A stretch of 64,000 bases of DNA, taken from positions 62,001 through 126,000 of the forward strand of contig NZ_JAINZP010000004.1 of the NCBI RefSeq assembly GCF_020166435.1, written 5' to 3'. Positions 1,908 to 11,704 of the stretch are shown piece after piece. Numbering within the stretch: the stretch's first letter is position 1; each line of letters opens with the position of its first letter. The notes beneath the pieces are model-generated. The model worked only from the letters and a program-made list of their open reading frames with translations, was not told the DNA's origin and did not search any database. This DNA comes from Pectobacterium versatile (GTDB lineage Bacteria; Pseudomonadota; Gammaproteobacteria; Enterobacterales; Enterobacteriaceae). A program made the translations under genes and the position numbers.

Positions 1908-2732
1908 CTATAAACCACCAACCAGCGTCAGATTAAACGTTTTGCCTTTCAGTTCCGTTTGCGCCTCGGGTGCTAACGCGCTGTCGGTGATGATATCGGT
2001 TAGTTCCGACAGGGGCGTGACGCAGAACAACGAATACGCACCGTATTTACTGCTGTCGGCCAGCAATATCCGGCGGCTGGCATTCGCACCGAGATCTTGT
2101 TTTATGCCCGCTTTCTCTTCCGTCGGCGTGGTAACGCCTTTGTCCAGACTCCACGAGTTGCAGCTGATAAACGCGATATCGGGGTAAATGCTGCGTAACA
2201 GACGGCGGCCGTGTTCGCCGATGCAGGACTGACTGCTATCATCAATACGTCCACCGATAATCGTCACTTCGATCTGCTTGAACTCAGACAGAAACAGCGC
2301 AATTTGCAAATCGGCAGTAATCACGCGCAGCGGCAAATGCGTCAGGTTTCGCGCCAGCTCCAGCATGGTCGTTCCCGCATCCAGCACCACCGCACTGCCT
2401 GGTTTAACCAGCGTCGCGGCATAGCGAGCTATCGCCTGCTTTTCTTGAAGGCTACGATGTAATTTCTCATTCGTGGTCGGCTGGGAAGGGATAAAACGAT
2501 TGAGCGTCACGCCGCCATGACTGCGGCTAATCACGCCCTGCTCATCCAGTTTGATCAAATCACGACGAATCGTCGCTGGGGAAGCGTCGATCACGGACAC
2601 CAGTTCATCTACCGTCACCAGATTATGGCTTTTCAGGTAATCCATAATCTGATCAAGACGGCTCTGCCCTTTTACTTTATCCCCGCTCATGCGGAAAGCA
2701 TCAGTTAATGTAGGATCCACGGCGATATCCAT
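1908..2732 (-). CDS. DeoR-family transcriptional regulator of the acid-sugar island
   Basis: The protein is 274 residues from the first ATG; a second in-frame ATG at 2690 would give 260, and neither has a strong SD. The N-terminal DeoR winged helix reads [20 protein letters not shown] then [17 protein letters not shown], with RSHGG after it. The C-terminal sugar-phosphate-sensing domain has [15 protein letters not shown] and the [14 protein letters not shown] segment. DeoR proteins of this type usually repress neighbouring catabolic genes and respond to a phosphorylated intermediate. It lies downstream of pdxA2 and dtnK on the same strand, separated by a truncated ERIC and a nested palindrome. 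It is likely to control the two divergent arms of the island. Confidence 0.85.
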
Positions 2733-2742
2733 CTTGCTGTCA

Positions 2743-2805
2743 TATACCCGTAATACTTCAAGCTGCTTGTGCGTTGGCTGCGCTACTCGAATTATTTGGG
2801 GTATA
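2743..2805 (-). repeat. Truncated ERIC element (63 bp)
   Basis: It runs from TATACCC to GGGTATA with the ERIC ends intact: on the minus strand CTCGAATTATT-type and CTTCAAG-type end segments match the two full ERIC copies at 10.3 and 10.9 kb. The central long stem (about 64 bp) is missing. It lies directly upstream of the DeoR gene start, so it will be in that gene's 5' leader. Confidence 0.8.
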
Positions 2806-2831
2806 AAGTTATTTTACATTGTTGGTTCTTG

Positions 2832-2884
2832 ATTGCAGGATACCAGAAACCTTCCCGAACGCGGGAAGGAAGATATCCTGCAAT
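2832..2884 (-). terminator. Nested perfect palindrome between pdxA2 and the DeoR gene
   Basis: The outer arms ATTGCAGGATA (2832-2842) and TATCCTGCAAT (2874-2884) enclose inner arms CCTTCCCG (2850-2857) and CGGGAAGG (2862-2869) with a four-base loop. The structure follows the pdxA2 stop on the minus strand. It could end or attenuate the dtnK-pdxA2 transcript before deoR, or protect its 3' end. There is no clear T run, so termination is inferred. Confidence 0.5.
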
Positions 2885-2936
2885 GTGCACTGTAGCTTAA
2901 AAAACCGTGCTATCAACCGTGATGGGTTACTGCCAA

Positions 2937-3917
2937 TCAGGCCAGTTGCATGGCGAGCTGGATAGAAATCGCCATACTTTCTGACTTCGCTTTCCCTGTC
3001 CAGGCAATATCAAACGCCGTGCCGTGGTCAGCAGACGTGCGGATGAACGGCAATCCGGCGGTGATATTCACCCCATCATAGAAGCCCAGCAGCTTAAGCG
3101 GAATGTGGCCCTGATCGTGATACATCGCCACCACCATGTCGTACTGGCCTTCATACGCCTGCAAATAGACGGTATCCGGGGGGCACGGGCCATAGACATC
3201 AATGCCTTTAGCTTTCATGGCTTCAACCGATGGCGACACGATGGTGATCTCTTCATCACCAAACAGACCATTCTCGCCCGCATGCGGGTTAACCCCGGCA
3301 ACGGCGATACGCGGGTGAGTAAAACCAACGCGCTTGAGGAAGACATCCGCCATCTCGATCACGGTTTCCACGCGATCGCGGTTCAGCGTATCCAGGAACT
3401 TACGCAGCGCGATGTGCGTTGAAACATGGATCACCTTCAACTTATCGGTATACAGCACCATCGCATAGTCGCGGCTGTTGGTCAGCTTCGCCAGCAGTTC
3501 GGTGTGACCCGGATAGAGGTGGCCTGCCGAGTGCAGCGCTTCTTTATTCAGCGGCGCGGTGGCAATCGCATGGACTTCACCCGCCATCGCCAGCGCGGTC
3601 GCTTTCTTAATGCAGCGGTAAGCTAAATCACCCGCCTGCGCCTGAACAAGACCCGGCTTCAGCGCCTGCGGATCTTCCAACGGCTCATCAATCATGTTGA
3701 TGACGCCCGGCGCGAAGACCGCGTCAGCCGGTTTATCAATAATTTTCAGCTCTACGGCTGGCACGATATTCAGTGCCAGAATACGTCGCATCGTCTGTAC
3801 GCAGCCCACCACCACGGCAGATGCGCCGGAAAGCTCGCCTTCGGCCAGCGATTTGATAATAATTTCCGGTCCAATCCCTGCCGGATCACCCATCGTTACC
3901 GCAATAATTTTACTCAC
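2937..3917 (-). CDS. pdxA2: 4-phospho-acid-sugar dehydrogenase, PdxA2 type (probable D-threonate 4-phosphate dehydrogenase)
   Basis: PdxA family; PdxA2 members oxidise and decarboxylate D-threonate 4-phosphate to dihydroxyacetone phosphate. The GTG at 3917 was chosen because GAGGAGAAGG lies just upstream and the protein then begins [18 protein letters not shown], the normal PdxA start (326 residues). Metal and active-site blocks are visible: [22 protein letters not shown] and [14 protein letters not shown]. The gene overlaps the stop of the kinase gene by 8 nt, so translation is coupled. True PdxA for vitamin B6 is normally in another context (surA-pdxA-rsmA), which supports the catabolic assignment. 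Substrate D-threonate rather than L-threonate or erythronate is inferred from pairing with this kinase without OtnC/LtnD-type genes. Confidence 0.85.
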
Positions 3918-10253: not shown

Positions 10254-10380
10254 TATACCCTAAATAATTCGAGTTTCAGGAAGGCGGCAAGTGAGGGAAT
10301 CCCGATGAGCTTACACAAGTAAGTGATTCGGGTGACCGAATGAAGCCAACGCACATGCAACTTGAAGTATGACGGGTATA
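10254..10380 (+). repeat. ERIC element, full length (127 bp)
   Basis: Exactly 127 bp from TATACCC to GGGTATA. The centre matches the ERIC long stem: GAGCTTAC and AAGTAAGTGA flanked by CCCGA/TCGGG arms. It lies between the sialidase-like gene and yhcH and ends 16 nt before the yhcH ATG. Confidence 0.93.
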
Positions 10381-10396
10381 TACCCGGGACACGATT

Positions 10397-10867
10397 ATGA
10401 TTGCAGGAAACCTCAACACCCTCAAACTCGCCACATTACCCGACGCGCTGTGGGCCATTCTGTCCGCACCGGGCATGTCGTTAGCTGAACTGAATGCGCT
10501 GCCCGAAGGCCGTTATCAGCCGGAAGGTGCCGAATGGTTCTACAACATCGGCACTGTGAACACCGCACCACGCGCCACGCGACATACCGAATTTCACAGC
10601 AACTACCTTGATATTCAACTGATTCTGGAAGGCGAGGAGATTATCGGTTACGGTCTGAATGATGTGCATGGTCAGCCCGCGACTGAACGTAAGCCGGATC
10701 TCTATATTCTGGATAATCCTCAGGTGCCGCATCAGATCCACCTGCGGGCAGGCGACTTCGTCACCTTCTATCCAGGTGAAGCTCATCAGGCGCTGTGTGC
10801 GATTAACGACAGCCCTGCTCCGGTCAAAAAAGCCGTGTTTAAAATCCCCGTCACGTTATTGTATTAA
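10397..10867 (+). CDS. YhcH/YjgK/YiaL (DUF386) family protein
   Basis: The protein is 156 residues. It is a cupin-like beta protein with the family segments EFHSNYLDIQLILEGEEIIGYG, FVTFYPGEAHQAL and KKAVFKIPV; the His and Glu residues in these are the usual metal ligands. YhcH (NanQ) in E. coli is a sialic acid anomerase-type protein, and YiaL sits in a gulonate cluster, so the family attends uptake of cyclic sugar acids. The gene is flanked by two ERIC copies in the same orientation; its own SD is weak because the upstream ERIC reaches to 16 nt before the ATG. It probably acts on the pyranose or furanose form of the imported sugar acid. Confidence 0.85.
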   Translation: MIAGNLNTLKLATLPDALWAILSAPGMSLAELNALPEGRYQPEGAEWFYNIGTVNTAPRATRHTEFHSNYLDIQLILEGEEIIGYGLNDVHGQPATERKPDLYILDNPQVPHQIHLRAGDFVTFYPGEAHQALCAINDSPAPVKKAVFKIPVTLLY

Positions 10868-10873
10868 AATGGT

Positions 10874-11000
10874 TATCCCCTAAATAATTCGAGTTGCAGG
10901 AAGGCGGCAACCGCGCGAATCCCCAGGAGCTTACTCAAGTAAGTGACTGGGGTGAGTAAGAGAAGCCAACGCACATGCAGCTTGAAGTATGACGGGGATG
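10874..11000 (+). repeat. ERIC element, full length (127 bp), second copy
   Basis: It has the same orientation and length as the copy at 10254. The centre has CCCCAGGAGCTTAC and AAGTAAGTGACTGGGG, which is the ERIC consensus itself. It begins 6 nt after the yhcH stop and ends 14 nt before the SDR start codon, leaving only the SD AAGGAG outside. Confidence 0.95.
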
Positions 11001-11014
11001 CATTAAGGAGACAC

Positions 11015-11704
11015 ATGTCAGCAACAGCCCCTAAACACGCCCTGATTACCGGTAGCAGCTCAGGGATCGGTGCCGCCATCACACAAAAATTACTGGCGGA
11101 AGGCTGGCGGGTAACCGGCCTGTCACGCAAGCCGGGTGACTATTCACATCCAAATTTTACCCACCGCGCGGTGGATATCATGGATACGCCCGCGCTGACG
11201 GCCATTCTGGACGAGATTGTGCAGGTTGATGCCATCATCCATGCCGCTGGCATTATGAAAGCGGCCCCGCTCGGCCAGCTTTCGCTGGAAGACGGCGAAA
11301 CGCTGTGGCGCTTGCATATCAACGCGGCACAGGTGCTTGCCGACCGTCTGGTCGATAAGCTGCCGCAAGGTGGAAGAATTGTGCTGCTGGGCAGCCGCAC
11401 GTCCAGCGGTTCAGCAGGACGCAGCCAGTACGTTACGACAAAATCCGCAATGATCGGCATGGCGAGAAGCTGGGCGGCTGAACTGGCCCCACGCGGCATT
11501 ACAGTAAACATCGTCGCGCCGGGCGCAACGGAAACACCGATGCTGACCATGCCGGGTCGCCAAAGCTCTCCGCCGAAGCTGCCGCCAATTGGGCGCTTCA
11601 TCCAGCCACAGGAAGTGGCCGATCTGGTGGGTTACCTGCTTTCTCCGTCTGCCGCGGCCATTACCGGCCAGCAGTTGGTGATGTGCGGCGGTGCATCGCT
11701 GTAA
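11015..11704 (+). CDS. Short-chain dehydrogenase/reductase
   Basis: The ATG at 11015 follows AAGGAG and gives 229 residues. The Rossmann glycine motif is TGSSSGIGAA (residues 13-22), the structural motif is HAAG near 85, the catalytic Ser is in LLGSRTSSGSAG, and YVTTKSAM carries the Tyr and Lys. The C-terminal GGASL end is typical for classical SDRs. It is the last gene of the plus-strand arm. SDRs in sugar-acid clusters oxidise or reduce a keto-deoxy sugar intermediate; the substrate is not known. Confidence 0.87.
   Translation: MSATAPKHALITGSSSGIGAAITQKLLAEGWRVTGLSRKPGDYSHPNFTHRAVDIMDTPALTAILDEIVQVDAIIHAAGIMKAAPLGQLSLEDGETLWRLHINAAQVLADRLVDKLPQGGRIVLLGSRTSSGSAGRSQYVTTKSAMIGMARSWAAELAPRGITVNIVAPGATETPMLTMPGRQSSPPKLPPIGRFIQPQEVADLVGYLLSPSAAAITGQQLVMCGGASL

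Follow-up and report, generated by a model that had tools for sequence, protein, structure and literature searches.

A nine-gene island at positions 1908..11704 of a 64,000-nt stretch of Pectobacterium versatile DNA (the whole stretch is called the window) probably, though by no means certainly, encodes a catabolic route in which Dha, a C7 2-keto-3-deoxy diacid of rhamnogalacturonan-II (RG-II), would be converted to pyruvate and D-threonate; the enzyme activities of this route are predicted from sequence. All nine open reading frames are intact. The DeoR regulator, the dehydrogenase PdxA2 and the kinase DtnK lie on the minus arm, and the plus arm contains, in this order, an iron alcohol dehydrogenase (Fe-ADH), a DapA-family aldolase, an SSF symporter, a BNR_2 sialidase-like propeller, a YhcH/DUF386 protein and an SDR oxidoreductase. 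This gene content and the divergent two-arm arrangement are those given in a preliminary description of the same DNA.

The DUF1537 kinase and the PdxA2-type dehydrogenase of that description both exceed the curated models for D-threonate use. DtnK scored 613.5 bits, above the cut-off of 450 for the D-threonate kinase equivalog NF047819, and PdxA2 scored 678 bits, above the cut-off of 583 for the D-threonate 4-phosphate dehydrogenase equivalog NF002891. In a PDB search DtnK was close to the solved structures 4xfm/4xgj (E 1.4e-255), and PdxA2 matched 6e85, named "D-threonate 4-phosphate dehydrogenase" (E 1.2e-173). D-threonate catabolism by DtnK and PdxA2 was reportedly established in the DUF1537 work of Zhang et al. 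in 2016. By the curated models the island kinase and dehydrogenase belong to this known pathway; the difference is that D-threonate in the island would be an internal intermediate, which the aldolase and a reductase would supply downstream of a sialidase-like step.

Co-occurrence and linkage of the two arms

Two samples of genomes were analyzed, 198 drawn from the family and 148 drawn from the order. An aldolase orthologue was found in 29 of the 198 family genomes (G344 holds just a 192-residue piece), and a Fe-ADH orthologue adjoining the aldolase was found in the identical 29. A DtnK homologue was present in all 29, as compared with 49/198 genomes overall (Fisher 5e-22, a descriptive value that ignores relatedness), and in 26 of these core genomes the kinase adjoined the aldolase–Fe-ADH pair. 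The propeller was detected in 21/198 family genomes and was accompanied by the aldolase in 20; the one genome without the aldolase, G209, is 49% complete. In the order draw the propeller (at least 70% identity), the aldolase and the kinase were all found in the same three genomes, and a fourth genome gave a 48% partial propeller match. The two arms function as one system, in agreement with the preliminary description, for which the co-occurrence (29/29) and the linkage (26/29) provide the support. Within the genus, the propeller was present at 96–99% identity in 21/24 genomes, with a 43% match only in G006 and none in G009 and G019; the window gene and its counterpart in Pectobacterium sp. PL152 share 99% identity.

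For a wider comparison, 80 loci, many of them from close relatives, were found by means of the propeller, and gene presence was determined by tblastn with the window proteins. The propeller, aldolase, Fe-ADH, kinase and PdxA2 genes were all within the fetched stretch at 56/80 loci. The five genes were together in Rhizobium etli, Agrobacterium fabrum, Azospirillum, Sinorhizobium meliloti, Aminobacter and Methylobacterium, at two betaproteobacterial loci (L070 and L079), and in Clostridium, Paenibacillus and Enterococcus raffinosus, the propeller of the last being 37% identical. Among the 24 remaining loci, 14 were without the core, five were cut by contig ends (L019, L021, L077, L080 and L082), L054 and L056 ended ahead of PdxA2, L047 had a kinase remnant, L052 had no kinase in place, and L070 had a kinase of a different subfamily. 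A 28% identical propeller of Pandoraea was placed outside the family, as partner genes were absent nearby.

The five genes are likewise together in E. coli, where 1043 of 5426 complete genomes hold at least 80% of an 8.7-kb island. In the two carriers read, the island sits between glnS and nagE (L095, L123, L122 interval); in K-12 MG1655 nagE adjoins glnS and the island is absent from this interval. The carriers include the plant-associated Pectobacterium, Dickeya, Pantoea, Erwinia and Rhizobium, and also E. coli and Klebsiella.

In 12 Pantoea genomes and in Bacillus swezeyi the propeller locus was without the other enzymes. A genome-wide search (L042 left out) located the aldolase and the DUF1537 kinase together elsewhere in each of these 13 genomes, and in three such units that were read (L106, L107 and L108) the Fe-ADH, aldolase, kinase and PdxA2 genes were contiguous. 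When the genomes of L054 and L056 were included, the best aldolase match lay no more than 4 kb from a DUF1537 gene in 15/15 genomes; for the other DapA-family matches of the same genomes the numbers were 0/76 within 4 kb and 1/76 within 10 kb. The possibility of two unlinked arms, raised with the preliminary description, is mostly rejected by the co-occurrence and by linkage across phyla, from Pectobacterium to Enterococcus; it holds for G295 and G321, in which the arms are separated.

The aldolase and its predicted substrate

The aldolase gave 194.1 bits with the DapA model TIGR00674 (cut-off 206.15, missed) and 157.2 and 125.1 bits with the NanA equivalogs (cut-offs 281 or 382, both missed), and is thus nearer to DapA than to NanA. 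The preliminary description had called it a "DapA/NanA-family" aldolase; on these scores and on the Arg138 class of the enzyme, NanA is the wrong comparison. Alignment with E. coli DapA, NanA, YagE and YjhH showed that the equivalents of Lys161, Tyr133, Thr44 and Arg138 are retained, and that N45, F107 and S163 are unlike all four. Position 138 (DapA numbering) is Leu in NanA (Leu142), YagE and YjhH; it is Arg in 55 of the 56 cleanly called aldolases from the 80 loci and Lys in the remaining one (Clostridium). The B. swezeyi aldolase also has Lys at this position. The aldolases of R. etli and Aminobacter belong to another subfamily (25–26% identical), and the occurrence of a different aldolase subfamily in the same gene set suggests that the enzyme set itself was selected.

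The island aldolase resembles DapA in its catalytic Lys/Tyr and in the Arg138 that binds a four-carbon aldehyde-acid, and the DapA product is likewise built on a C7 2-keto diacid; it differs in its location in a catabolic locus, in T-N instead of T-T at positions 44–45 and in a score under the DapA cut-off. According to PMC4977564, Arg138 of E. coli DapA binds the four-carbon aldehyde-acid ASA, and alpha-ketopimelate, a C7 2-keto diacid, touches the equivalent Arg148 in a co-crystal of the M. tuberculosis enzyme. With the DapA-type Arg138 retained, a C7 2-keto-3-deoxy diacid is the natural guess for the substrate. A Kdo/Kdn aldolase was set aside, as the aldose fragment leads to no D-threonate and needs no Arg138, and a KDG-type aldolase was rejected on residues 138 and 45 (Leu and Gly in YagE/YjhH).

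Retro-aldol cleavage of a C7 2-keto-3-deoxy diacid gives pyruvate and a four-carbon aldehyde-acid, which becomes a tetronate once its aldehyde group is reduced. From the derived stereochemistry, D-threonate is reachable from only the D-lyxo and D-xylo forms among the eight stereoisomers. According to PMC8218411 and PMC12282258, the D-lyxo compound is Dha of RG-II, where it is attached to the galacturonan backbone and has an arabinofuranose cap. The candidate substrates would narrow to C7 2-keto-3-deoxy diacids of D-threo configuration at C5/C6, Dha being the simplest choice, and with Dha as the substrate one route would lead through every invariant gene, i.e., those of the propeller, aldolase, Fe-ADH, kinase and PdxA2.

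Other genes and the divergent region

The features of the island are listed in Table 1. The start codons of PdxA2 and the aldolase were checked; for the SDR, the list of open reading frames pointed to the ATG at 11015. Among the NCBIfam matches listed, no plus-arm enzyme passed a substrate-specific cut-off.

Table 1. Features of the Pectobacterium versatile island (window positions) and of the alternative module found at other loci.
Feature	Position	Strand	Basis or remark
DeoR/GlpR-family regulator, presumed for both arms	1908..2732	-	PF00455 161.9 bits, PF08220 66 bits
PdxA2, D-threonate 4-phosphate dehydrogenase (yields dihydroxyacetone phosphate by oxidative decarboxylation)	2937..3917	-	NF002891; GTG start
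DtnK, D-threonate kinase (DUF1537)	3910..5238	-	NF047819
Block TGATTATATTGAATCACATTTGATTATATGTGAGCAA conserved in the divergent region, probable operator for both arms	5270..5306	.	Alignment of 14 intergenic regions
Fe-ADH, proposed to reduce D-threuronate (tartrate semialdehyde) to D-threonate	5475..6611	+	PF25137, PF00465
Class I aldolase of the DapA family, proposed to split Dha into pyruvate and D-threuronate	6680..7564	+	PF00701 221.9 bits
Sodium:solute symporter, presumed to import Dha or one of its glycosides	7603..9018	+	PF00474 80.1 bits vs. 22.8
Cytoplasmic sialidase-like propeller, proposed Dha 2-ketoside hydrolase	9022..10209	+	BNR_2 (PF13088) 225.1 bits, above gathering score 31.4
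YhcH/YjgK/YiaL (DUF386), presumed ring-opening anomerase	10397..10867	+	TIGR00022 103.8 bits vs. 45.5
SDR oxidoreductase, optional	11015..11704	+	PF13561
Alternative module, D-2-hydroxyacid dehydrogenase and MFS carrier	L107:9470-14383; also L109-L116, L118		PF04199 cyclase-like protein in some

The propeller begins with MSSETITVERSGK, and an in-frame stop is located just upstream. The maximum 10-residue Kyte-Doolittle value in its first 45 residues was 0.2, as compared with 2.13 for the periplasmic NanM control, which bears out the earlier statement that the protein is without a signal peptide; six homologues gave values of 0.89–1.95, the highest being that of R. etli. In 11 propellers from Gamma-, Alpha- and Betaproteobacteria and Bacillota, 103 positions were invariant, including several Arg/Asp residues, E357 and Y360. 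Catalytic sialidase-type glycosidases (GH33/GH143) have a carboxylate-binding Arg triad, a Tyr/Glu nucleophile and an Asp acid-base in the propeller. In the profile search the island propeller gave short, weak partial alignments to sialidases, and a weak match (E 0.042) to PDB 5mqr, there named "Beta-L-arabinobiosidase", which we take to be BT_1020, a Bacteroides protein with a Dha-hydrolase domain (GH142/GH143, RG-II use). This match is a lead and no assignment, and a hydrolase role of the propeller is only proposed. The reaction proposed for it equals Dha hydrolysis as in BT_1020; unlike BT_1020, the island propeller is single-domain and cytoplasmic, and its sequence is too divergent for a GH143 assignment.

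Residues D188, H192, H257 and H271 of Fe-ADH, presumably the metal ligands by their position, were invariant across 10 homologues. Its best NCBIfam models were lactaldehyde reductase (216.9 bits, cut-off 523, top by E-value), ErcA and 4-hydroxybutyrate dehydrogenase (215.2 bits, cut-off 500), all under cut-off. The importer varies among the island versions (SSF, TerC plus SLC13, DASS, MFS or ABC), and the DASS/SLC13 carriers in some of them fit a dicarboxylate substrate. For the YhcH-type protein, first described as NanQ-like, membership of the YhcH subfamily was confirmed and the NanQ N-acetylneuraminate anomerase equivalog NF040884 was missed (105 bits, cut-off 160); a protein of this type was present at 60/80 propeller loci. 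None of the best 25 of 210 NCBIfam matches of the SDR reached its cut-off, and the SDR is missing from the E. coli island. Both SDR and YhcH are outside the invariant gene set.

The 236-bp region between the arms contains a 37-bp block that is conserved in the intergenic regions of 14 species picked from 54 sequences. A homologue of the DeoR-family regulator was found at 54/80 loci, and the window regulator passed no DeoR-family equivalog cut-off of NCBIfam. Inverted repeats with 7-bp arms were absent from the intergenic region of the window, and a promoter/terminator scan gave nothing firm. On the simplest reading the block would be a DeoR-type operator serving both arms, the assignment to the DeoR protein being presumptive.

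Inspection by eye of the remaining window revealed two proteins of TerD-family appearance at 2-1165, past the regulator and a HAD gene. At 15232-17512 it showed an EIIB/EIIC pair of PTS type, with a transaldolase-like protein downstream; these genes seem to form a sugar system of their own. A TerC-family membrane protein is encoded inside the E. coli island (L095:10860-11582), and its tie to the TerD-like genes of the window is possibly a coincidence. At other loci, the genes after the island encode hydantoinase A/B (oxoprolinase-like) proteins in a record named Serratia marcescens (L011, 12615-16512), and a chemoreceptor with a DctP-type solute-binding domain, possibly sensing the same acid, follows the propeller–SDR pair at L079:11419-13626.

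Proposed route and alternative explanations

In the proposed route, Dha or a small Dha glycoside would be imported by the symporter, and the cytoplasmic sialidase-like enzyme would break the 2-ketosidic bond in the fashion of a sialidase. Ring opening would be accelerated by YhcH, by analogy with NanQ. The aldolase would then cut open-chain Dha to pyruvate and D-threuronate, the DapA-type Arg gripping the distal C7 carboxylate, and the aldehyde would be reduced to D-threonate by Fe-ADH, in keeping with the derived stereochemistry. DtnK would phosphorylate D-threonate to D-threonate 4-phosphate, which PdxA2 would convert by oxidative decarboxylation to dihydroxyacetone phosphate; these last two are known activities, assigned from the curated-model matches. 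A single DeoR-type regulator, working through the shared block between the arms, would control both. The outline of the preliminary description, aldol cleavage with a four-carbon acid passed to the kinase, is probably right in view of the D-threonate models and the co-occurrence, and is made specific here.

Standard sialate catabolism (NanT/SiaT, NanQ, NanA, NanE, NanK), which had already been excluded, is unlikely indeed and was rejected, as the aldolase is not NanA and NanE (PF04131) gave 0 matches in the genome in a search positive in 8/14 control genomes; the search did not extend to NanK, NagA or NagB. The island shares with that pathway an acid-sugar importer, a sialidase-type enzyme, the anomerase family and a pyruvate-forming lyase of the DapA superfamily, but it is without a NanE match, its aldolase has Arg where NanA has Leu, and its product is handed to an alcohol dehydrogenase and to a kinase for four-carbon acids.

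Several observations weigh against the proposed Dha route. Arg138 is ancestral in DapA too, so its retention is no proof, and the aldolases of R. etli and Aminobacter have Val at this position. The SDR has no place in the pathway and is unexplained, and the match of the propeller to 5mqr is weak. No RG-II depolymerase was recognised among the scanned neighbours, which were part of the neighbours only; GH1, GH3 and NamZ-type enzymes were seen among them, none RG-II-specific. In the family sample, 20 of the 49 kinase-bearing genomes have the DtnK homologue without the aldolase, so D-threonate is probably a nutrient by itself too. Just a 16% kinase remnant is in place in G145 and at L047, and at L052 the kinase was not found in place. 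In G295 and G321 the aldolase–Fe-ADH pair is apart from the kinase and PdxA2; the best kinase of G295 is about 60 kb away, and those of G145 and G321 are on another contig. A break can thus fall between the arms (2/29 family genomes), and a kinase homologue is still present in the genomes of G145, G295 and G321. Finally, nine of the 29 core genomes are without the propeller, and all nine have a D-2-hydroxyacid dehydrogenase (69–85% identity to the L107 enzyme) and an MFS carrier (82–88%) beside the aldolase; six loci (L031, L054, L056, L058, L065 and L069) have both this module and the propeller module. Each module could yield a free 2-keto acid for the aldolase, by ketoside hydrolysis or by oxidation of a 2-hydroxy acid, respectively, and the dehydrogenase/MFS module is just partly accounted for by the proposed pathway.

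That this second module accompanies the core in nine family genomes and co-occurs with the propeller module at six loci would also fit the same chemistry with another natural substrate, such as the D-xylo isomer or a constituent of a bacterial or algal polysaccharide, in place of Dha of RG-II. The conservation of the core and Arg138 fit such a substrate too, the D-xylo isomer also yields D-threonate, and the carriers Clostridium and Enterococcus are not obviously plant-bound. We regard this explanation as unlikely, since many carriers belong to plant-associated genera (though E. coli and Klebsiella are carriers too) and Dha is, to our knowledge, the sole natural acid of this kind. The separation of the arms in G295 and G321, which lowers our estimate of the Dha route slightly, slightly raises that of two independent pathways at one locus, one for D-threonate use and one for a Kdo/Kdn-type ulosonate, with Fe-ADH reducing the freed aldose. 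The occurrence of the DtnK homologue without the aldolase and the resemblance of the plus-arm genes to a sialate set point the same way. Two such pathways are nevertheless improbable: the aldolase and Fe-ADH are always accompanied by a kinase homologue (29/29), the aldolase still adjoins the kinase in the 13 genomes with the propeller locus apart, and Arg/Lys at the distal-carboxylate site would be misplaced for a neutral aldose.

It is very improbable that the aldolase cuts an ordinary 2-keto-3-deoxyaldonate to glyceraldehyde or glycolaldehyde, with reduction of the product by Fe-ADH and separate entry of D-threonate through the same importer. The lactaldehyde reductase model at the top of the Fe-ADH matches, far below its cut-off, and the inclusion of YagE/YjhH in the aldolase superfamily are consistent with such a reaction, but Leu138 and Gly45 of YagE/YjhH are unlike the residues of the island aldolases, and the constant kinase and sialidase-type enzyme would be left unexplained. 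A different question, compatible with the Dha pathway, is whether the propeller prepares free Dha without being a hydrolase, as a mutarotase, a lactonase or an intramolecular lyase. NanM provides an example of a propeller anomerase, and the cytoplasmic location of the island propeller and the persistence of the core where it is missing are in line with a role of this kind, which we consider rather unlikely in view of the BNR/Asp-box sialidase-type sequence and of the YhcH-type protein already found at most of the loci.

No description of a pathway from Dha to D-threonate was recognised in the literature searched, which did not include subscription papers (2017 on RG-II and 2016 on DUF1537), so that a prior description is possible. 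The enzymes belong to known families and the pathway would be new. We hold it evenly balanced whether the island represents an undescribed complete pathway of Proteobacteria and Bacillota for Dha, a sugar characteristic of RG-II, with partly different aldolase and kinase subfamilies around a conserved sialidase-like enzyme, that occurs in roughly one in five complete E. coli genomes and accounts for the natural source of D-threonate. If so, it would supply the missing route for Dha as well as a source for D-threonate, and would give functions to the aldolase, to Fe-ADH and to the cytoplasmic sialidase-like family now annotated as "exo-alpha-sialidase". A prediction that can be put to the test in E. 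coli, rhizobia and soft-rot bacteria would also follow.

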